Shown in pieces: positions 1-53,215 of a stretch of 64,000 nt of DNA. The stretch comes from an uncultured Tateyamaria sp. GTDB taxonomy: Bacteria > Pseudomonadota > Alphaproteobacteria > Rhodobacterales > Rhodobacteraceae. Position numbers and translations under genes: made by a program. Positions within the stretch are counted from its first letter, which is position 1. Each line of letters begins with the position of its first letter. The notes beneath the pieces are model-generated. The model was not told the DNA's origin and made no database searches. It saw only the letters and a program-made list of their open reading frames with translations. Location: positions 94,399 through 158,398 of the forward strand of contig NZ_CANNGP010000006.1 in assembly GCF_947504105.1 (NCBI RefSeq), read 5' to 3'.

Positions 1-861
1 CAGGGCGCTGCGATCAACCTGTGCCGATCCGCTGTCCAGCACGCCATCCACAGGCACCCGCGCCCCAGCAGCCAGCCACAGCGTATCACCTTCAGCCACA
101 TCATCGACAGGGACACTCACGCGCGTTTCGCCTTCGATGCGCGTTACCCGCAACGGCTCAAGCGCCGCCAAATCAGCAGCAGCCGAACGTGCGGCCTGAC
201 GCATACGCTTTTCCAGAACACGACCCGCAAGCAGAAAGAACGTCAGGGACAGGGCGGCATCGAAATACGCATGCTCTCCGCCTTGCGACGTTTCATAAAG
301 CGAAAGACCGCAGGCCAGAACGATGGCCAGCGCGATGGGCACGTCCATATTCAACCGCATACCGCGTAATGCAGACCAAGCCGAACGAAAGAACGGCTGT
401 GCACAGTAGATCGCGGCGGGCAATGAAATCGTGGCAGCGATCCAGTGGAAGAAATCGCGTGTGGCATCTGTCGCACCGGACCAGACGGCCACTGACAGCA
501 GCATGACATTCATCATTGCGAAGCCTGCGATGCCAAGGCGCAAAGTCAGGCCGTCATCCTGACTGGGGGCGCCAGCGTCACGCGCCTCATGTGCCTCGAA
601 CCCGACGCCGGTCAGCGCAGCGATCCACGGCGCAGGATCAATACCCGGTTCCGCCGTGATCGCCACACGCTTGCGGCTCAGGTTGACCCGCGCCGCTGTG
701 ATATCCGGGCGGGAGTTGAGCAGCCCTTCAACCGACCGGATACAGGCAATACAATGGATGCCTGGCAGGATCAGCTCATGAGTGGGTAGTCCCGCATCAC
801 GTCCCGCTGTCTCGGCAACGTCACCGGCCGCAACGCAACCCGGGCGGGATGCAATACTCAT
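1..861 (-). CDS. ccoI: Copper-translocating P-type ATPase CcoI/FixI, N-terminal part (cut by window edge)
   Basis: This reading frame is open to the left edge, so only about 287 N-terminal residues are visible. Translation from the ATG at 861 gives a heavy-metal-binding domain with a CIAC motif (GIHCIACIRS, near residue 40). It continues with membrane segments and the start of the actuator domain (EGDTLWLAAGARVPVDG). The phosphorylation and ATP-binding domains lie outside the window. Enzymes of this family export copper for assembly of cbb3 oxidase. The start overlaps the ccoH stop by 4 nt, as expected in a ccoGHI(S) operon. The identification rests on domain order and context and is strong. 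Confidence 0.9.
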   Translation of the reverse strand, partial: MSIASRPGCVAAGDVAETAGRDAGLPTHELILPGIHCIACIRSVEGLLNSRPDITAARVNLSRKRVAITAEPGIDPAPWIAALTGVGFEAHEARDAGAPSQDDGLTLRLGIAGFAMMNVMLLSVAVWSGATDATRDFFHWIAATISLPAAIYCAQPFFRSAWSALRGMRLNMDVPIALAIVLACGLSLYETSQGGEHAYFDAALSLTFFLLAGRVLEKRMRQAARSAAADLAALEPLRVTRIEGETRVSVPVDDVAEGDTLWLAAGARVPVDGVLDSGSAQVDRSAL

Positions 862-1316
862 TGCCACACTCGAAGGACAATGCGCTGCCGGAAGTCTGTC
901 CCATCATGAGCAACCGCGGCCAGACGCAGGTTCCAGTTTCCCGGCGCTAGTGTCGGGATATCCGCCACGAACTGAACGCCATCGTGCCGGAAATCTGGTG
1001 TGAGATCCTCGCCCACATGCGTCGCGCGGCCCAAGGTCGCCGATGTGATCGTCGGCACCACCGGCCCAATTGCATCGTCAATGTGCAGTGCCAGCACACC
1101 GTCCGCCACATCTGCATAGACCTTCCAGCCCAATGCTTCTTGCGCGGCGCGATCGCCATCAAACGCTTGGCTGACGACATAGGAATTCTTGGTCTCCAGC
1201 CCCGGAAAAGTGTGTACCGCCTGAAAGGCAAGTGTCAGGTTCACACTGATGATGATGGCAAAGGCTGATCCAAAGATAGCCAATACGTGCCAGCCGGTGA
1301 GTTCCTTGACCTGCAT
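858..1316 (-). CDS. ccoH: Cytochrome cbb3 oxidase assembly protein CcoH/FixH
   Basis: A 152-residue protein with one N-terminal membrane segment (about residues 9-30, HVLAIFGSAFAIIISVNLT) followed by a periplasmic beta-rich domain. The early motif NSYVVSQAF is usual in FixH. CcoH is needed for stable assembly of the cbb3 oxidase and co-occurs with CcoG and CcoI. It follows ccoG after 3 nt and overlaps ccoI by 4 nt, so the three are probably translationally coupled. Confidence 0.9.
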   Translation of the reverse strand: MQVKELTGWHVLAIFGSAFAIIISVNLTLAFQAVHTFPGLETKNSYVVSQAFDGDRAAQEALGWKVYADVADGVLALHIDDAIGPVVPTITSATLGRATHVGEDLTPDFRHDGVQFVADIPTLAPGNWNLRLAAVAHDGTDFRQRIVLRVWQ

Positions 1317-1319
1317 CTC

Positions 1320-2753
1320 TTAACCCTTTCCGTTGAAAATTGTGGTGACACCAGCCCGATCGTCAGTTTCGACGTCTTCGACCCACAGGCGCAAATCCGT
1401 GATCTCTCTGTCTGCAGCCGCATCTTGCGGGCGGGCGATGACATAGACGCGGGCCTGCATTGTTTCGTTCGCGGGGACGGTAACATGGTTGGGACTCTGA
1501 CCGTCGGTCTCGACATCAATGCGAAGGATGTCTTCGGACGTCAGCATAACGCGGAATGTTCGATCCTCGGCAGTCAGGTTGCGGATGCGGAGGGTATAGG
1601 TGTTGCGCACCGCTCCATCCGACAGTGTTACGAACTGCGGATTGCGCACTGGCTCGATCGTTAGGTCGATATCCGAGCGGATGAACAGTGCATAGACCAA
1701 CGCCACACCGATCAGCGACCACATCGCTGTATAAAGGATCGTACGGGGGCGCAGCACGTGCCGCCAGATCGGGCGCGGCTTGGCACCTTTGGTCTCGGCC
1801 TTTTCATCCGACAGGGCCAGATAGTCGATCAGCCCACGTGGCTTTCCGATACGCTCCATCACCTCATCGCAAGCGTCGATACACAGGGCACAGGTGATGC
1901 ACTCCATCTGCTGTCCGTCACGGATATCGATGCCCGCCGGACAAACGTTCACACACGCCATGCAATCTACGCAGTCACCAAGCTGATCGGCACCTTTAGC
2001 CTTGCGGTGCTTGCCCCGTGGCTCGCCCCGCCAGTGGCGATAGGCAACCGTCAGCGTGTCATTGTCCATCATCGCGGCCTGGATCCGCGGCCATGGGCAC
2101 ATGTAATTGCAGACCTGTTCGCGCATGAAGCCACCAAAGACAAAGGTGGTCGCTGTCAAGATCAGGATGGTGGAGTAGGCCACGAGCGGTGCACCGAAGG
2201 ACAGCAAATCGCGGGCCAAAGTCGGAGCATCGGCAAAATAGAAAACCCACGCCCCGCCGGTCGCCATCGCAATCAGGAACCATACCGCCCACTTGGTCAA
2301 GCGCAGGCGCACTTTGTTCAGCGACCAATCTGCGTTCCATAGACGGACGCGGGCGTTGCGATCGCCTTCAATCCAGCGTTCAACAAGAATGAAAAGGTCA
2401 GTCCAAACAGTTTGCGGACAGGTGTAGCCACACCAAACGCGACCCAAGGCAGAGGTGAACAGGAACAAGCCGAGCCCCGCCATAATCAACAGCCCCGCCA
2501 CAAAATAGAACTCGTGTGGCCAGATCTCGATCCATAGGAAGTAGAAACGCCGCCCCGCCAGATCAACAAGAACCGCCTGATCCGGCAGGTTCGGGCCGCG
2601 GTCCCAACGAATCCATGGGGTCAGGTAGTAGATCGCAAGCGTGACACCCATGATCCACCATTTGAGCGTGCGAAACTTACCCCTCACCCGCCGGGGAAAG
2701 ATCGGTTCACGCGGCACGTAAAGAGGCGGCGGAGAAGCCGGAGACTGTGTCAT
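1320..2753 (-). CDS. ccoG: Cytochrome c oxidase accessory protein CcoG (FixG/RdxA), polyferredoxin-type
   Basis: A membrane protein of 477 residues with several N-terminal hydrophobic segments. Two four-cysteine iron-sulfur motifs follow (CVDCMACVNVCP, then CITCALCIDACD), then a C-terminal immunoglobulin-like domain. This is the CcoG family, reported to act in copper handling during cbb3 biogenesis. The ATG at 2753 is chosen because AGGA lies about 8 nt upstream; a TTG at 2780 is in frame but has no better ribosome site. An FNR box lies 54 nt upstream, so ccoGHI probably has its own oxygen-regulated promoter separate from ccoNOQP. Confidence 0.93.
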   Translation of the reverse strand: MTQSPASPPPLYVPREPIFPRRVRGKFRTLKWWIMGVTLAIYYLTPWIRWDRGPNLPDQAVLVDLAGRRFYFLWIEIWPHEFYFVAGLLIMAGLGLFLFTSALGRVWCGYTCPQTVWTDLFILVERWIEGDRNARVRLWNADWSLNKVRLRLTKWAVWFLIAMATGGAWVFYFADAPTLARDLLSFGAPLVAYSTILILTATTFVFGGFMREQVCNYMCPWPRIQAAMMDNDTLTVAYRHWRGEPRGKHRKAKGADQLGDCVDCMACVNVCPAGIDIRDGQQMECITCALCIDACDEVMERIGKPRGLIDYLALSDEKAETKGAKPRPIWRHVLRPRTILYTAMWSLIGVALVYALFIRSDIDLTIEPVRNPQFVTLSDGAVRNTYTLRIRNLTAEDRTFRVMLTSEDILRIDVETDGQSPNHVTVPANETMQARVYVIARPQDAAADREITDLRLWVEDVETDDRAGVTTIFNGKG

Positions 2754-2760
2754 TGTCAAA

Positions 2761-2864
2761 TGTCCTGTTCGTATGTTCAAACTGCAGGGCCTGCACGGCC
2801 AGCACCTTGATCTGGATCAAGCACCAAGGGGAAATCCCGGTCCCAGCTTGGTACGAACAGGACA
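2761..2864. repeat. 13-bp inverted repeat flanking the ccoG FNR box
   Basis: TGTCCTGTTCGTA at 2761-2773 is the exact reverse complement of TACGAACAGGACA at 2852-2864. The midpoint (2812.5) falls within 1 bp of the centre of the FNR box at 2807-2820. Most of the left arm (CCTGTTCGTA, extended to CCTGTTCGTATGTT) also occurs downstream of the ccoN FNR box at 6423-6436. The function is unknown; it may bind a second regulator. Confidence 0.6.
2807..2820 (-). promoter_or_regulatory. FNR box upstream of ccoG
   Basis: TTGATCTGGATCAA matches the FNR/FnrL consensus TTGAT-N4-ATCAA perfectly. It lies 54 nt upstream of the ccoG ATG and downstream of the ccoP stop. If FnrL binds at -41.5, transcription would begin near 2772. 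The expected regulator, fnrL, is encoded at 6985-7725. Confidence 0.85.
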
Positions 2865-2938: not shown

Positions 2939-3811
2939 TTACTCGCCGCCGCCCAACTGGTGCAGATACAAGGTGACTGCCTTGATCTCTTCTTCGTCCA
3001 AACGCTGACCCCAAGCTGGCATCACGCCGAAGCGTGAATAGGTCACCGTCTCGATCAGGGTTTCGCGATCCCCGCCATAAAGCCAAATCGCATCGTTCAG
3101 AGTAGGCGCGCCTAGTTCCCGGATGCCTTCGCCGTTGTCGCCGTGACAAGCGGTGCACTGCTCTTGGAACCAAACCATGCCCTGTTCAGCCATGGCCGCA
3201 TCATGGTCCTGGCCCGATAAGGACAGGACGTACTCAACGGTTTGGTCGATCTCCTCGTCTGACATGATGTCGCCGAACGCAGGCATCTCAGACCACCGCG
3301 CATCTGGGTCGGTCTCGTTCCGAATACCGTGCCTCACGGTATACTCGATGTCTTCCAGCGTGCCGCCCCACAGCCAGGCATCATCCAGCAGGTTGGGATA
3401 GCCGGCCGCCTGAACGCCTGCGGCACCGGACCCATGGCATTGCGAGCAATGGGCAAGAAAGACCGAAGCGCCGCCTGCAACGCCAAACCGGTGCGCCGGA
3501 TCGTCAGGCGCAAGTGTCGCCAAATCCGCAGACGCCAGACGTTCCGTCAATTCCGCGTTCTGCGCATTCACTTCTGCAATCCGTTCAGCAACTTCGGCGC
3601 GGGTGGAGTATCCCAATACACCCGTCGTGGCCGAATTGATCAGCGGCCACGCAGGATAGGCAATCGTGTATGCCAACCCCCAGACAACCGTGCCGTAAAA
3701 GGTCCACAACCACCACCGCGGCAGCGGGTTGTTCAGTTCCTTGATGCCGTCCCATTCGTGACCTGTGGTATCGGTCCCGGTGACATCATCAATGTCTTGT
3801 TTGTCAGCCAT
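2939..3811 (-). CDS. ccoP: Cytochrome c oxidase cbb3-type subunit III, diheme CcoP/FixP
   Basis: A 290-residue protein. It has one N-terminal membrane segment (around residues 34-52, WLWTFYGTVVWGLAYTIAY) and two cytochrome c domains with heme motifs CSQCH (122-126) and CTACH (219-223). The opening region EWDGIKELNNPLPRWW is characteristic of the family. CcoP passes electrons from cytochrome c to the catalytic subunit. The ATG at 3811 (MADKQ) is preferred over an upstream in-frame codon, and it overlaps the ccoQ end by 8 nt. The gene is intact, unlike ccoN upstream. Confidence 0.95.
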   Translation of the reverse strand: MADKQDIDDVTGTDTTGHEWDGIKELNNPLPRWWLWTFYGTVVWGLAYTIAYPAWPLINSATTGVLGYSTRAEVAERIAEVNAQNAELTERLASADLATLAPDDPAHRFGVAGGASVFLAHCSQCHGSGAAGVQAAGYPNLLDDAWLWGGTLEDIEYTVRHGIRNETDPDARWSEMPAFGDIMSDEEIDQTVEYVLSLSGQDHDAAMAEQGMVWFQEQCTACHGDNGEGIRELGAPTLNDAIWLYGGDRETLIETVTYSRFGVMPAWGQRLDEEEIKAVTLYLHQLGGGE

Positions 3812-4004
3812 CTTGGTCGGCCTCCGGTTCTTGCGCTGCCAGATGCGCATCAGTGTCGTTTCTCAGTGGAATACCGGCCGCCTCTTCATTGGCCGCACGC
3901 GCCGAGGGACGGAAGGCCCAAAGGCAGGCGGTGATGTAGAAGATCACCATCGCCAGAAGCACCCAGCTATCAGCCAACTCTCGCAGGAAGGAATACGTGT
4001 CCAT
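3804..4004 (-). CDS. ccoQ: Cytochrome c oxidase cbb3-type subunit IV CcoQ/FixQ
   Basis: A small 66-residue protein with one membrane helix (LADSWVLLAMVIFYITACLWAF) and a charged C-terminal tail, the standard shape of CcoQ, which stabilises the oxidase. The ATG at 4004 has a strong AGGAGG ribosome site 5 nt upstream. It sits between ccoO and ccoP and overlaps ccoP by 8 nt. Confidence 0.92.
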   Translation of the reverse strand: MDTYSFLRELADSWVLLAMVIFYITACLWAFRPSARAANEEAAGIPLRNDTDAHLAAQEPEADQDG

Positions 4005-4013
4005 CAAAACCTC

Positions 4014-4739
4014 CTATCGGCTCGGATCGGGCGTAAAGGTCGAGAAATCGACCAAGGTGCCCAGCATCTGCAGGTAAGCAATCAGCGCATCCATCTCGGT
4101 CAGTTCAGGCTGGCCGTCAAAGTTGGATACGACCGCGCCGGGGTAGCGCTCGACCAAACCATCCCAATCGCCGTCGGGATCGGCCTGAACCCGAAAATCG
4201 TCGGCAGCGGCTGCGACCATCTCATCGGTATAGGGCACGCCCACAAAGCGGTGGGTCTTAACCAGATCCTCGATATGCTCGCCGTCTATCACCGCATCCG
4301 CGAGGAAGGCGTATTTCGGCATGATCGATTCAGGCACAACCGATTGCGGGTCCATCAGGTGATCGACGTGCCAGGCATCCGAATACCTGCCGCCGACACG
4401 GGCCAAATCGGGTCCGGTCCGCTTCGATCCCCATTGATGTGGATGATCGTACATCGATTCAGCCGCCAGGGAGTAGTGCCCGTAGCGTTCAACCTCGTCC
4501 CGCATGGGGCGGATCATCTGGCTGTGGCAGACGTAGCACCCCTCGCGCACGTAGATGTCGCGCCCCGCCAGTTCGAGCGGACTGTAGGGCCGCACGCCTT
4601 CCACCTCCTCAATCGTGTTTTCGAGGTAGAAGAGCGGCGTGATCTCCACGATGCCGCCGACCGAGACAGTGAGCAGCGAAAAGACGAACAAAAGCGTCGG
4701 GCTGCGTTCCAGAACCTGGTGTCGCTTGAGAAAAGCCAT
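4014..4739 (-). CDS. ccoO: Cytochrome c oxidase cbb3-type subunit II, monoheme CcoO/FixO
   Basis: A 241-residue membrane-anchored monoheme cytochrome c. The N-terminal helix covers roughly residues 14-32, and the heme motif CYVCH is at 68-72 within [22 protein letters not shown], a family hallmark. The ATG at 4739 (MAFLKRH) has GGGAGA just upstream; the longer in-frame extension has no support. It lies 13 nt after ccoN and before ccoQ, in the canonical NOQP order. The reading frame is intact. Confidence 0.95.
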
Positions 4740-4752
4740 GTTTCGGTCTCCC

Positions 4753-6377
4753 TTATGCGGCTTGTGCAGGTTGAGCGGCAGCAATAGGCACCGCAGGCGG
4801 GGCCACCCGGACAGGTTGCCCACCCCGAATGGTCATCCACATGTTCCAGACCATGATGCAGGCACCGGTCAGGTACAGAACCCCACCCAATCCGCGCACC
4901 ACATACATCGGGAACTTCGCGCTCACAGTGTCGGCGAACGAGTTCACCAGGAACCCTTGGGCATCAACTTCGCGCCACATCAGGCCCTCCATGATGCCGG
5001 TCACCCACATGGATGCCGCGTAAAGCACGATACCAATAGTCGCGAGCCAGAAGTGCCAGTCGATAGCAGCCATGGAATACATCTGCTTGCCGCCCCACAG
5101 GCGCGGCGTCAGGAAGTAGAGCGCGCCAAAGGTGATCATGCCATTCCAGCCCAGCGCGCCGGAATGCACGTGCCCGATGGTCCAGTCGGTATAGTGGCTG
5201 AGCGAGTTGACCGCCTTGATGGACATCATCGGTCCTTCGAAGGTGGACATGCCGTAGAAGGCCAGCGAAATCACCATCATCCGAATGATCGGATCAGTCC
5301 GCAGCTTGTCCCATGCGCCTTGTAGCGTCATCAGGCCGTTGATCATGCCCCCCAGCTCGGCATCCACAGGATGATTGAGAACACCATGCCAAGGGTCGAC
5401 GCCCAGTCAGGCAAAGCGGTGTAGTGCAAGTGGTGCGGACCCGCCCAGATATACAGGAAGATCAGCGCCCAGAAGTGGATGATCGACAGCTTGTAGCTAT
5501 AGACAGGACGGCCCGCCTGCTTGGGCACGAAGTAGTACATCATGCCCAGGAACCCGGCAGTCAGGAAGAAGCCCACTGCGTTGTGGCCATACCACCACTG
5601 CGTCATGGCATCCTGTACGCCCGAGAACACCTGCACGGACTTGGAGCCCAGCAGCGAGACCGGAATGCTCAGGTTGTTGACGATGTGCAGCATCGCCACG
5701 GTGATGATGAAGGCCAAGAGGAACCAGTTGGCGACGTAAATATGTTTCTCTTGCCGCTTGAAGATCGTGCCCATGTAGACAGCGAGGAAAGCGACCCAGA
5801 CCAATGTCAGCCAGATGTCCACATACCATTCAGGTTCGGCATATTCCTTGGATTGCGTCGCCCCCAGCAGGTACCCGGTGGCCGCCATCACGATGAAAAG
5901 CTGATAACCCCAGAATACGAACCAGGCGAGGTTGCCGCCCCAAAGCCGCGCGCCGCAGGTGCGTTGAACAATGTAGAAAGACGACATGATCAGGGCGTTG
6001 CCGCCAAAAGCAAAAATCACTGCAGAAGTATGCAGTGGGCGCAAACGTCCGAAATTGGTAAAAGGTTGACCCCAATCAAAATTCAGCCCCGGAAAAGCAA
6101 GCTGGAAGGCGATGAAAACCCCCGCCAGAAATCCGACGACACCCCAGAAGCCAGTGGCGATTACACCCGCTCGGACAACATTATCCATGTAACCGGTGTC
6201 ATCAACGACAGCGCGCGTTTCGCCGACATGGCGTAGTTACCAAATAAACATGCCTGCAGCGATCAACATGATCAGCGCGGCATGCAGTTTATAGGCCAGA
6301 TCGTGGCCCCAATCCGCTGCAATTGCAGCGACCAGAGCAACCAGACCCAGCAAGATCAATTTAACATAGTCCCACAT
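4753..6377 (-). pseudogene. ccoN: Cytochrome c oxidase cbb3-type catalytic subunit I CcoN, with a nonsense codon and a frameshift
   Basis: The true start is the ATG at 6377 (MWDYVKLILLGLV, with AAGGA upstream). That frame hits TAA at 6237-6239 after 46 codons (MFIW-stop-LR). The same frame then continues through [21 protein letters not shown] to MPSWG, where it stops at 5343. The protein resumes in another frame as [13 protein letters not shown] and runs to 4753. Adding one G to the six-G run (5348-5353, minus strand) restores the usual WGGMINGL join and a protein of about 541 residues. CcoN is the heme-copper catalytic subunit, so as sequenced no full-length oxidase could be made. A shorter product from the ATG at 6188 would still be truncated at 5343. 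Either a real pseudogene or an erroneous sequence; ccoO, ccoQ and ccoP are intact. Confidence 0.88.
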
Positions 6378-6422
6378 GGTTCGTCCTTCGCGGTTGCGTG
6401 CTGTCCCCGCGGGGACAACAGA

Positions 6423-6436
6423 CCTGTTCGTATGTT
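6423..6436 (-). promoter_or_regulatory. Motif shared by the ccoN and ccoG promoter regions
   Basis: CCTGTTCGTATGTT on the plus strand occurs here and at 2764-2777, on the downstream side of the FNR box in both promoters (31 and 29 nt from the box). It coincides with the predicted transcription start if FnrL binds at -41.5. It was not seen near the other two FNR boxes. Role unknown. Confidence 0.5.
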
Positions 6437-6467
6437 GGCTGATTAGATGCGCCCGCGTCGGGCCGCG

Positions 6468-6481
6468 TTGATCTGGATCAA
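6468..6481 (-). promoter_or_regulatory. FNR box upstream of ccoN
   Basis: TTGATCTGGATCAA, a perfect FNR consensus, lies 91 nt upstream of the ccoN start codon at 6377 and is identical to the ccoG box. With the box centred at -41.5, a -10-like TAATCA falls at 6440-6445 on the minus strand. It should drive ccoNOQP under low oxygen. Confidence 0.87.
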
Positions 6482-6492
6482 GAGAGGCCGAT

Positions 6493-6900
6493 TTACCGAA
6501 TTACATGCACCGCACACTTCGCGTGACGCGTGACCCACGCTGCTGTCGACCCCAGCAGGATATCGGACAAAGCAGGCTGGTGGGACGCAATGACGATCAG
6601 ATCGACACCGTTTTGTTCGGCGTAGTCGGTGATACTGCGGCCGGTTGCGCCTTCGATCACGGCGCTTTGTCCGTTTGGCAACTCACTGGCCATCATCTTC
6701 AACCGCGTTGCAATCCGCTCCCGATTGCCCGCCACCGTATCCGCCGGCACGTATTCAGCGGCGTACATGGGCAACTGTTCCATCACGTGCAGCAACGTTA
6801 TGCGCGCAGCTTCAGATGCAAGATGCTTGGCGACGGCCACAGCCTGCGGGTGATCGCGCCCCTCGCCGAACAAAACGGGGATCAGGATGTTGGAATACAT
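6493..6900 (-). CDS. Universal stress protein (UspA family) under an FNR box
   Basis: A 135-residue single-domain UspA-fold protein beginning MYSNILIPVLFGEG and ending with ILLGSTAAWVTRHAKCAVHVIR. The ATG at 6900 has AAGGAGGG upstream; the frame extends further but without support. The usual ATP-binding loop, G-x2-G-x9-G(S/T), is altered: the first two glycines are replaced (IASHQPALSDILLGST), so nucleotide binding is uncertain. It lies between fnrL and ccoN, with an FNR box 61 nt upstream, which suggests induction at low oxygen. Stress proteins beside fnr are common in related bacteria. Confidence 0.88.
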   Translation of the reverse strand: MYSNILIPVLFGEGRDHPQAVAVAKHLASEAARITLLHVMEQLPMYAAEYVPADTVAGNRERIATRLKMMASELPNGQSAVIEGATGRSITDYAEQNGVDLIVIASHQPALSDILLGSTAAWVTRHAKCAVHVIR

Positions 6901-6932: not shown

Positions 6933-6974
6933 GGGATAGCAATGGCCACGCGTGACCGCGTTGATTTGGATCAA
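6933..6974 (-). promoter_or_regulatory. FNR-dependent promoter of the universal stress protein gene
   Basis: TTGATTTGGATCAA at 6961-6974 fits the FNR consensus. A TATCCC hexamer at 6933-6938 on the minus strand falls at the -10 position if the box is centred at -41.5. The promoter sits between the fnrL stop and the stress-protein start. Confidence 0.75.
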
Positions 6975-7736: not shown

Positions 7737-7750
7737 TTGATCTGTGTCAA
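7737..7750. promoter_or_regulatory. FNR box between fnrL and hemN
   Basis: TTGATCTGTGTCAA matches the looser FNR consensus TTGAY-N4-RTCAA with one change from the perfect half-site. It lies in the 59-nt divergent region, 12 nt from the fnrL start and 35 nt from the hemN start. It is close enough to repress fnrL or act on hemN. The direction of its effect cannot be read from sequence. Confidence 0.7.
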
Positions 7751-47307: not shown

Positions 47308-48372
47308 TCACGCCACGAGCCTCCCATCTTCTGCAAAGTAGAAGGCCTGAGATGCATCCATGTAGAACTCATGCCGCTCCCCCACTTCGTAGGGGTGCAC
47401 GCCATGAGCCAAAGAAACCCATCCGTCATCGCCAATCTGAAAATGCGCACTGGATTCTGACCCGGACAATTCGGTCACCAGAACAGTGCCATCCAACTTA
47501 ACATAATCTGTCCCCGCGGGGACAGGCGTCACGTGGTGGGGCCGGATGGCAAGCGTATAGACCCCGTCGGCGATTTCCGCCGCTGGCCCAGAAAGCGCCC
47601 AGCTTGCCCCTGTCTCCATCTGAGCGGTCCCGCCTGACTTGGTGATCCGCGCGGCATTGATGGGCGGATCGGAAAAGACCCGTGCCGCCGTCAGATTGTC
47701 CGGCTTGCGATAGATATGAGCCGTCGTGCCAAACTGGGTGACGACACCATCGTCCATCAGCGCCGTCTTGCCCCCCAGCAACAGCGCCTCTTCTGGCTCG
47801 GACGTGGCATATACCACAACCGCACCGCGACCGGCGAACAACTCCGGCAGTTGCTCCCGCAGTTCTTCGCGCAGCTTGTAGTCGAGATTGGCGAGGGGTT
47901 CATCGAGGAACACCGCCCGACTTTCCTTAGCGATTGCGCGGGCCAGCGCGCACCGTTGCTGCTGGCCACCCGACAATTCCTGCGGGCGACGGTGCAGCAT
48001 CGGACGCAATTGCAGGATGTCAGCTGCTTCTTCGACCCGCCCCTGAATTTCGGACTTCGCCATGCCTGCAACCCGCAGCGGGGAGGCGATGTTATCGAAA
48101 ACCGTCATATGCGGATAGTTCACGAAAAACTGGTGCACGAGGCTGATGTTGCGTTTCTGCGTCGACAGTCGCGACACGTTCTGTCCGTCCATCCAGACCT
48201 CGCCATCGGCCAGTGGATCGAGGCCAGCCATCAGCTTGATCAAAGATGTTTTGCCCGATGCGGTCTGCCCCAGCAGGACATTAAAATGTCCAGGCTCCAT
48301 CACCAGCGATGTGGGCTTGATATGGGTGATGCCGCGCACGCGCTTGGTGGCGTCTTTCAGCTCGAGTGTCAT
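47308..48372 (-). CDS. glpS: Glycerol ABC transporter ATP-binding protein GlpS, with an altered H-loop
   Basis: A 354-residue ATPase. Walker A is GQTASGKTS, the signature is normal (LSGGQQQRCALAR) and Walker B is VFLDEPLANLD. The H-loop reads YATSEPEEALLLG, with Ser where His is expected. The ATG at 48372 (MTLELKDATKR) fits the family. It is the first ATPase gene after the binding-protein gene glpV. Confidence 0.87.
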   Translation of the reverse strand: MTLELKDATKRVRGITHIKPTSLVMEPGHFNVLLGQTASGKTSLIKLMAGLDPLADGEVWMDGQNVSRLSTQKRNISLVHQFFVNYPHMTVFDNIASPLRVAGMAKSEIQGRVEEAADILQLRPMLHRRPQELSGGQQQRCALARAIAKESRAVFLDEPLANLDYKLREELREQLPELFAGRGAVVVYATSEPEEALLLGGKTALMDDGVVTQFGTTAHIYRKPDNLTAARVFSDPPINAARITKSGGTAQMETGASWALSGPAAEIADGVYTLAIRPHHVTPVPAGTDYVKLDGTVLVTELSGSESSAHFQIGDDGWVSLAHGVHPYEVGERHEFYMDASQAFYFAEDGRLVA

Positions 48373-48394
48373 TGTTCCTACCCGCGAAGAATGA

Positions 48395-51778: not shown

Positions 51779-52486
51779 TTAGACCGAGACAGCCTTCAGC
51801 AAATCTGAACGTTCAATGTCGGCGCGCCGTCCTTCCAGCTTAACCACTCCGCGCTCAAGCACCGTGAACCTGTCGCCAAGATCAAAGGCAAAATCGAAAT
51901 ACTGTTCGACCAGCACAATGGCCATCTGCCCCCGCTCCCGCAGGGTCGAGATGACCTCGCCGATCTGCTTGATGATGTTGGGCTGAATACCTTCGGTCGG
52001 CTCATCCAGCAGCAGAAGCTTGGGTTCGGTGACCAGTGCACGGGCGATGGCAAGCTGCTGTTGCTGGCCGCCCGACAGGTCTCCACCACGACGATGCAGA
52101 AAATCTTTCAGGATCGGGAACAAGTCAAAAATCTCGTCTGGAATTCTGTGTTTGCTACGTGGCAGGCAGGCAAAACCGGTCTCAAGGTTTTCCTGCACAG
52201 TCAGGAACGGAAAAATCTCCCGCCCCTGCGGCACGTAGGCGACGCCCTTCTGAGCAAGGGCGTGGGCACTGGATTTACCGATCTCTTCGGCGTCGAGCCG
52301 GTACATACCATCGCTGCGAACATGTGTACCCGAGATGGCCTTGAGCAGGCTGGTCTTGCCGACACCGTTGGTGCCCATCACGCATGTGACCTCACCCCGC
52401 CGCGCCGTCAGGTCGATGCCACGCAGAATTTCGCTACCGCCGTAGTGCAGGGTCAGCCCTTCGATTTCGAGCAGGTTATCGGCCAA
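51779..52486 (-). CDS. urtE: Urea ABC transporter ATP-binding protein UrtE
   Basis: An ATPase of about 235 residues with Walker A GTNGVGKTS, signature LSGGQQQQLAIAR, Walker B LLLLDEPTEGIQP and H-loop-region LVEQYFDFAFD. Translation most likely starts at TTG (52486), which has GAGG upstream and overlaps urtD by 11 nt; no ATG is near. The longer in-frame reading into urtD is rejected. It is the last urt gene; urease genes are not in the window. Confidence 0.9.
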   Translation of the reverse strand: MADNLLEIEGLTLHYGGSEILRGIDLTARRGEVTCVMGTNGVGKTSLLKAISGTHVRSDGMYRLDAEEIGKSSAHALAQKGVAYVPQGREIFPFLTVQENLETGFACLPRSKHRIPDEIFDLFPILKDFLHRRGGDLSGGQQQQLAIARALVTEPKLLLLDEPTEGIQPNIIKQIGEVISTLRERGQMAIVLVEQYFDFAFDLGDRFTVLERGVVKLEGRRADIERSDLLKAVSV

Positions 52487-53215
52487 GGTACACCTCGATG
52501 ACGGCTTCGTTGGATGTGACGTGATCAATCGATCCTTCGGCCAGAACCGAACCTTCGTGCAGCACGGTGACTTTGCAATCGAGGCGGCGGACAAACTCCA
52601 TGTCGTGCTCGACCACCACAACCGCGCGGGTTTTGGCCGCCTCGACCAGAATTTCGGTTGTGTGTTCGCGTTCCGCCGGAGTCATACCCGCTGCCGGTTC
52701 ATCGACCAGAAGCAGGCGTGGTTCCTGTGCAAGCAGCATGCCAATCTCCAGCCACTGTTTCTGACCATGGCTCAATTCGCCCGCCTTGCGGGCGAGTGCA
52801 GCGACCAGTCCGATCTCACCGGCCAAGTCTTCGACCCGGTCCTGATCTGCACGTGACGCGCGGAAGTTCAGAACGGCAAAGGGGATCGTTTCTTTTTCAA
52901 CGCCAGCATCAGGTTTTCGGCAACCGTCTGGTCTTCGAACACCGTTGGGCGCTGGAACTTCCGCCCGACCCCCGCCTGCGCGATCTGGCTTTCTGACATC
53001 GACAGAAGCGATTGCGATTTTTCGCCCCACAGCACGCGCCCCTCGTCGGGTCGCGTCTTTCCCGTCACAATGTCCATGAAAGTGGTTTTACCTGCGCCGT
53101 TTGGCCCGATGACCGCGCGCATCTCGGCCTCGCCAATCTGGAACGTCAGATTGTTGATCGCTTTGAACCCATCGAATGAGACGGACACACCGGACACTTC
53201 AAGAAGTGTGCTCAT
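52476..53215 (-). pseudogene. urtD: Urea ABC transporter ATP-binding protein UrtD, with a one-base frameshift
   Basis: The frame starting at 53215 covers Walker A (GPNGAGKTT) and runs to ENLMLALKKKRSPLPF, then stops at 52868. The rest of UrtD (PFAVLNFRASRADQDRVEDLAGEIG, signature LSHGQKQWLEIGM, Walker B LLLVDEPAAGMTP) is in another frame and ends at 52476. Adding one C to the four-C run (52881-52884 on the plus strand, G-run) restores KKKRSPFAVLNF and a 246-residue protein, the normal UrtD size. All other motifs are intact, which suggests a recent event or a sequencing error. Confidence 0.88.

Follow-up and report, generated by a model that had tools for sequence, protein, structure and literature searches.

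Rhodobacterales encode their cbb3 oxidase in an operon with the gene order ccoNOQP-GHIS (FixNOQP), and Pseudomonas species include genomes with two cbb3 oxidases. A natural lesion in a cbb3 subunit gene is described for Neisseria meningitidis, where a CAG to TAG change is reported to shorten CcoP (PMC2924362). According to the same paper, aerobic growth was no different between the strains compared, and nitrite consumption was affected; the truncation marks the species and the enzyme works (PMC2924362).

The window analyzed here is a stretch of 64,000 nucleotides from the draft genome of an uncultured Tateyamaria sp. (G000; 4.76 Mb in 214 contigs). It contains a cbb3 operon (cbb3-1) that resembles the Rhodobacterales type in its gene order, its FNR-like boxes, its NCBIfam equivalog matches for CcoO, CcoP and CcoG and its ligand motifs, but differs in that CcoN is divided into three pieces by a stop codon and a frameshift. 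As in the Pseudomonas genomes, two ccoNOQP-type sets are present, although one of them has a broken CcoN here. The locus shares with the Neisseria case (PMC2924362) a stop created by one base change in a cbb3 subunit gene of a natural lineage; unlike that case, it concerns one genome and includes a CcoN frameshift. The features of ccoN are as follows.

6237-6377, minus strand: 5' piece of ccoN, 46 codons ending at TAA; an N-terminal extension, hydrophobic by eye
6237-6239, minus strand: in-frame TAA at codon 47, a place where all 17 genus loci fetched have an open frame
6227-6258, minus strand: divergent patch of 32 nt with 10 differences from G003, including the stop
5343-6188, minus strand: middle piece, from the in-frame ATG at 6188 to a TGA; bears three of the four ligand motifs sought
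5348-5353, minus strand: run of six G with a one-base loss; the frame-shifting site
5343-5346, minus strand: ATGA overlap, read from the sequence, in which the middle piece stops and the 3' piece may start
4753-5367, minus strand: 3' piece, open up to the normal stop; GHVHSGALG motif

Direct reading of ccoN (4753-6377, minus strand) showed two interruptions that leave three pieces. From the ATG at 6377, 46 codons are followed by the in-frame TAA, just where the first-pass annotation had seen it. Downstream of the TAA, the frame is open until the six-G run, where it shifts: the first frame terminates at TGA 5343-5345, and the second, past the run, reaches the normal stop at 4753. In an alignment with G003, the nearest species compared, the stop corresponds to a sense codon and the G-run is shorter by one base in G000. 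The first-pass annotation was right about this one-base loss but had put it near residue 325, while its actual position is codon 342-344. No full-length match to TIGR00780 (CcoN) was obtained; the two large pieces match it separately with 482.9 and 316.5 bits, against a cut-off of 583.15. The heme and copper ligand motifs sought are all present, three in the middle piece and GHVHSGALG in the 3' piece. The interruption of ccoN at two places is confirmed, and it is ordinary in kind. As in a pseudogene, the lesions disrupt the frame and have no counterpart in relatives.

The rest of the operon had been described as intact in its partner subunits, assembly factors and FNR boxes. This description stands, with ccoQ, ccoH, ccoI and ccoS named by position:

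4014-4739, minus strand: ccoO, open; TIGR00781, 365.6 bits (cut-off 200.65)
3804-4004, minus strand: ccoQ-like small ORF, open; named by position
2939-3850, minus strand: ccoP, open; TIGR00782, 365.6 bits (cut-off 179.95)
1320-2780, minus strand: ccoG, open; TIGR02745, 547.2 bits (cut-off 316.7)
858-1316, minus strand: ccoH-like ORF, open; named by position, without NCBIfam match
6468-6481, unstranded: FNR-like box upstream of ccoN
2807-2820, 6961-6974 and 7737-7750: further FNR-like boxes
6066-6079: FNR-like box within the ccoN coding region

Putative ccoI and ccoS, assigned by position and reading, are also open, at the window edge and beyond. The five FNR-like boxes (one inside ccoN) lie in the first 12 kb of the window and were found with the FNR consensus. 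The partner genes are still undecayed.

The two lesions do not weigh equally. The piece that begins at ATG 6188 aligns, by its residue 4, with residue 13 of 3mk7 and residue 7 of 8smr, and it aligns with 9g6b from residue 14 of that chain; in 9g83 and 6xkw, the match starts at residues 69 and 63. The N-terminal extension is thus missing from three of the five matched solved CcoN chains (3mk7, 9g6b and 8smr, which are of the Pseudomonas type) and present in the other two. The match of this ATG 6188 piece to the NCBIfam ccoN model, which has 474 positions, begins at model position 6. Because the piece aligns near the N-terminus of three solved chains, the first 63 residues of CcoN are an extension that some CcoN lack. 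The stop lies in this extension, with an in-frame ATG near the start of those chains, and therefore only the frameshift must inactivate CcoN. The TAA alone would not prove loss of CcoN, and the frameshift would. The gene had been called broken twice; there are indeed two lesions, but double damage was overstated, since the stop sits in a part missing from some CcoN. The residues at the column of the stop are varied in 96 open relatives, threonine, glutamine and leucine being the commonest. By eye, no evident Shine-Dalgarno-like sequence precedes ATG 6188. The literature search returned no paper on a CcoN N-terminal extension.

The proposed comparison with the closest strains supported the observation. 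In a search of 19 other species of the genus, ccoN is open across both lesion sites in 17, and both lesions are missing from all 17 loci fetched. G019 gave no ccoN match in this search, and G017 carries a decayed remnant whose ccoN is no longer usable: fragments of fnrL, ccoN, ccoP, ccoG and ccoH lie near a frame-shifted hemN (L210 8549-11928, contig C12 of G017), with no ccoO match in the remnant. The cbb3-1 locus resembles this remnant in lying beside hemN, with the fnrL fragment as a further likeness, and in having an unusable ccoN; it differs in that nothing but fragments is left of ccoN, ccoP, ccoG and ccoH in G017, whereas G000 has two point lesions. In a family sample of 246 genomes (completeness of at least 95), 228 have a ccoN match; among the matches listed, those with one internal stop all reach at least query residue 534 of 541. 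Among the paper titles listed on cbb3, pseudogenes and Roseobacter, none reported a broken ccoN in this group.

The first-pass annotation had also suggested, as one option, that another ccoN exists. A genome-wide search bore this out in the form of a complete second cbb3 operon, ccoN2-O-Q-P-I-S, on contig C16 (L122 98-5903 and L121 17130-18120); its CcoN2 is not a duplicate but a paralogue in its own operon, 63% identical to ccoN1 over a 281-aa piece. The genes on C16 are, in listed order:

ccoN2: 540 aa; TIGR00780, 646.2 bits, above cut-off; ligand motifs kept
ccoO2: 312.1 bits, above cut-off
ccoQ-like small ORF: without family match
ccoP2: 260.5 bits, above cut-off
small ORF: listed after ccoP2
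heavy-metal P-type ATPase: 402.4 bits, above cut-off
ccoS: 62.5 bits, above cut-off

An Rrf2-family regulator adjoins this operon, its best match being NsrR, below the cut-off of that family. A 132-aa ORF beside the operon is truncated-hemoglobin-like by eye and has no NCBIfam match, and the operon is close to a contig end that carries a transposase-like ORF. The 26.6 kb of C16 that were read contain no strict FNR-like box by the same consensus. The idea of yet another, hidden ccoN was rejected: the COX1 (PF00115) search of the assembly gave five matches, corresponding to four genes including the broken ccoN, the CcoN protein of G003 gave three matches, and the 281-aa piece matched itself and CcoN2. 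The genome also encodes two aa3-like oxidases, one above the CtaD cut-off and one just below. A second CcoN is likewise present in G003, G008 and the family member G021, whose first ccoN is open; therefore, a backup permits loss of ccoN1 and does not force it.

We compared about 796 kb with G003 (730 aligned ORFs here, 729 in G003) and reviewed the flagged lesions by eye. The scan covered ORFs of at least 80 aa, aligned over at least 60% and with at least 12 substitutions, and considered stops away from either end, large deletions being ignored. Raw flags amounted to nine rows in 6 of 730 ORFs here and six rows in 5 of 729 for G003, and a gross frameshift excess in this assembly was rejected on these similar counts. 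On review, three rows of one ORF were dropped for this genome (an extension before a dehydrogenase-like start, common to G003), as were all six rows of G003 (two small shadow ORFs, two extensions that precede the likely start and one shared extension flagged twice). This left broken ORFs in 5 of 730 here versus 0 of 729 in G003, where a possible truncation at one shadow ORF falls outside the scan. At that site, the facing frame has at least 1566 aa in G000 (C6 78289-82986) versus 506 aa in contig C2 of G003, where it may have been truncated or rearranged. The four broken ORFs other than ccoN are:

52479-53215 of the window, minus strand: urtD, frameshift near 52880, one C missing relative to G003 and G012
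C1, near 284079: FAD-dependent-oxidoreductase-like gene (named from sequence reading), one-base frameshift
C1, near 42942: LysE-like transporter (named from sequence reading), one base more, in the last fifth
C2, near 121908: Nudix-like gene (named from sequence reading), in-frame stop

The urtD gene encodes the ATP-binding protein of a urea ABC transporter; its 3' part matches TIGR03411, and both flanks of the lesion are conserved. The stop in the Nudix-like gene, which is open in G003, lies directly 3' of a catalytic-helix-like motif. All four one-base frameshifts that remained after review, three losses and one gain, are in or beside short homopolymers. The only ORF of the five with two lesions is ccoN. 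With only four further lesions across 742 kb of aligned coding sequence as background, we calculate a chance of about 0.01 for a double hit in any of the 730 genes, which makes it a fair remark that a substitution plus an indel is hard to get from a single slip. Shorter control comparisons flagged 0 of 82, 1 of 118 and 0 of 49 ORFs, the flagged one consisting of two parts that lie in different frames and are separated by about 207 extra nt. In the reverse direction, the same shadow ORF gave one flag in 84, 119 and 49 ORFs.

The dN/dS values against G003 are 0.076, 0.035 and 0.044 for the three ccoN pieces, far from the value near 1 given by relaxed selection in a pseudogene. All three pieces are under strong purifying selection. 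Values so far below 1 would mean that the break is too recent to show or that ccoN is not a pseudogene; because they are low in all three pieces, any break would be very recent. Changes on the G000 side comprise 5 amino-acid and 30 synonymous ones, with four more sites ambiguous, compared to 1 and 15 on the G003 side. The low dN/dS, together with 5 G000-specific amino-acid against 30 synonymous changes, would place any loss at the branch tip. By our own arithmetic, if ccoN normally evolves at about 4% of the neutral amino-acid rate, roughly 4 of the 5 changes would be expected even with no relaxation, and under this assumption no more than about a tenth of the branch can have been unconstrained. 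Near residue 430, one of the changes, R to G, falls in a column that is 98% conserved in 96 CcoN proteins. Such odd changes occur in 1 of 17 genus relatives and number 0.96 on average, with a maximum of 11, across all 96 proteins; the R to G change is therefore unremarkable outside the genus and gives very weak support for loss.

The patch of 32 nt that holds the stop lies between a tract of 381 nt identical to G003 (6259-6639) and 43 identical nt (hand count). Another identical tract, of 414 nt, is found at 47972-48385, while average divergence is 12-14%. Each of the five contigs scanned has long tracts of identity, far above the expectation under uniform divergence, a naive yardstick, suggesting frequent recombination between the two lineages. 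The TAA may have been brought in by a recombination event.

We give about an even chance to the reading that ccoN1 has truly lost its function, very recently and in this one strain. Two mutations, a nonsense change within the N-terminal extension and the loss of one base from a short G-run, would have cut the catalytic subunit into three, and the cbb3-1 operon with its FNR-like box would probably still be transcribed but unable to assemble an oxidase. The loss would probably be tolerable because a complete second cbb3 operon and two aa3-like oxidases are present. Both lesions can be read in the sequence, and none of the 17 genus loci fetched has either; one of the two is a substitution and not a homopolymer slip, a double hit in one gene is unlikely at the background rate, and operon loss occurs in the genus, as the G017 fragments beside hemN and the lack of a match in G019 indicate. 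An assembly or base-calling error, by which at least the G-run loss and perhaps the stop would be absent from the living strain and ccoN1 would be normal, is a less probable but serious alternative. It explains the open partner genes and the constrained ccoN pieces equally well, and it fits a draft of 214 contigs with five broken ORFs after review, none in G003, and with every one-base frameshift at a short homopolymer, including that of urtD in the same window. However, natural one-base indels favour homopolymers too, the lesion rate is not extreme next to the controls and the similar raw flags, the TAA is a substitution within a coding-like patch, the Nudix-like gene has another nonsense change, and two errors in one gene are unlikely. 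The second operon alone does not make ccoN1 dispensable, as G003 and G008 keep theirs open. The evidence leans to a real event without settling it, with an assembly error close behind.

The stop might also be real and harmless, if a restart at ATG 6188 gave a short CcoN of Pseudomonas length and the frameshift were an error or the halves were made separately via the ATGA overlap. The chain alignments and the model match near the ATG are consistent with this, as are the 43 nt up to the ATG identical to G003 and the unchanged aerobic growth reported with shortened CcoP (PMC2924362). The missing Shine-Dalgarno-like sequence and an extension open in all 17 genus loci argue against a restart, and with the break lying inside SWGGM, a helix would probably be disrupted at this motif; we hold a restart improbable. 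A fully working split gene, with a 46-residue N-terminal helix peptide, the core from ATG 6188 and the last third made via the ATGA overlap, is the least credible reading; if true, a heme-copper oxidase would have a catalytic subunit put together from two or three chains. Slippage in the G-run could toggle ccoN1, one G having been lost from a seven-G run like that of G003, but phase variation leaves the TAA unexplained. Seven Gs occur only in G003 and G008; the run is interrupted by another base in the other 15 of 17 genus relatives, the longest stretch being four, so that it is not a tract kept in relatives, as in a contingency gene, and we consider phase variation very unlikely.

Two cautions follow: CcoN may survive a stop that falls in its extension, and in a draft genome a metabolic loss should not be claimed from a homopolymer frameshift until reads confirm it. 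Should the lesions prove genuine, the loss of ccoN1 would be the first step towards giving up a high-affinity oxidase with a second set still in place, and with G017 as a late stage of the same loss, it would form a small natural series within the genus.
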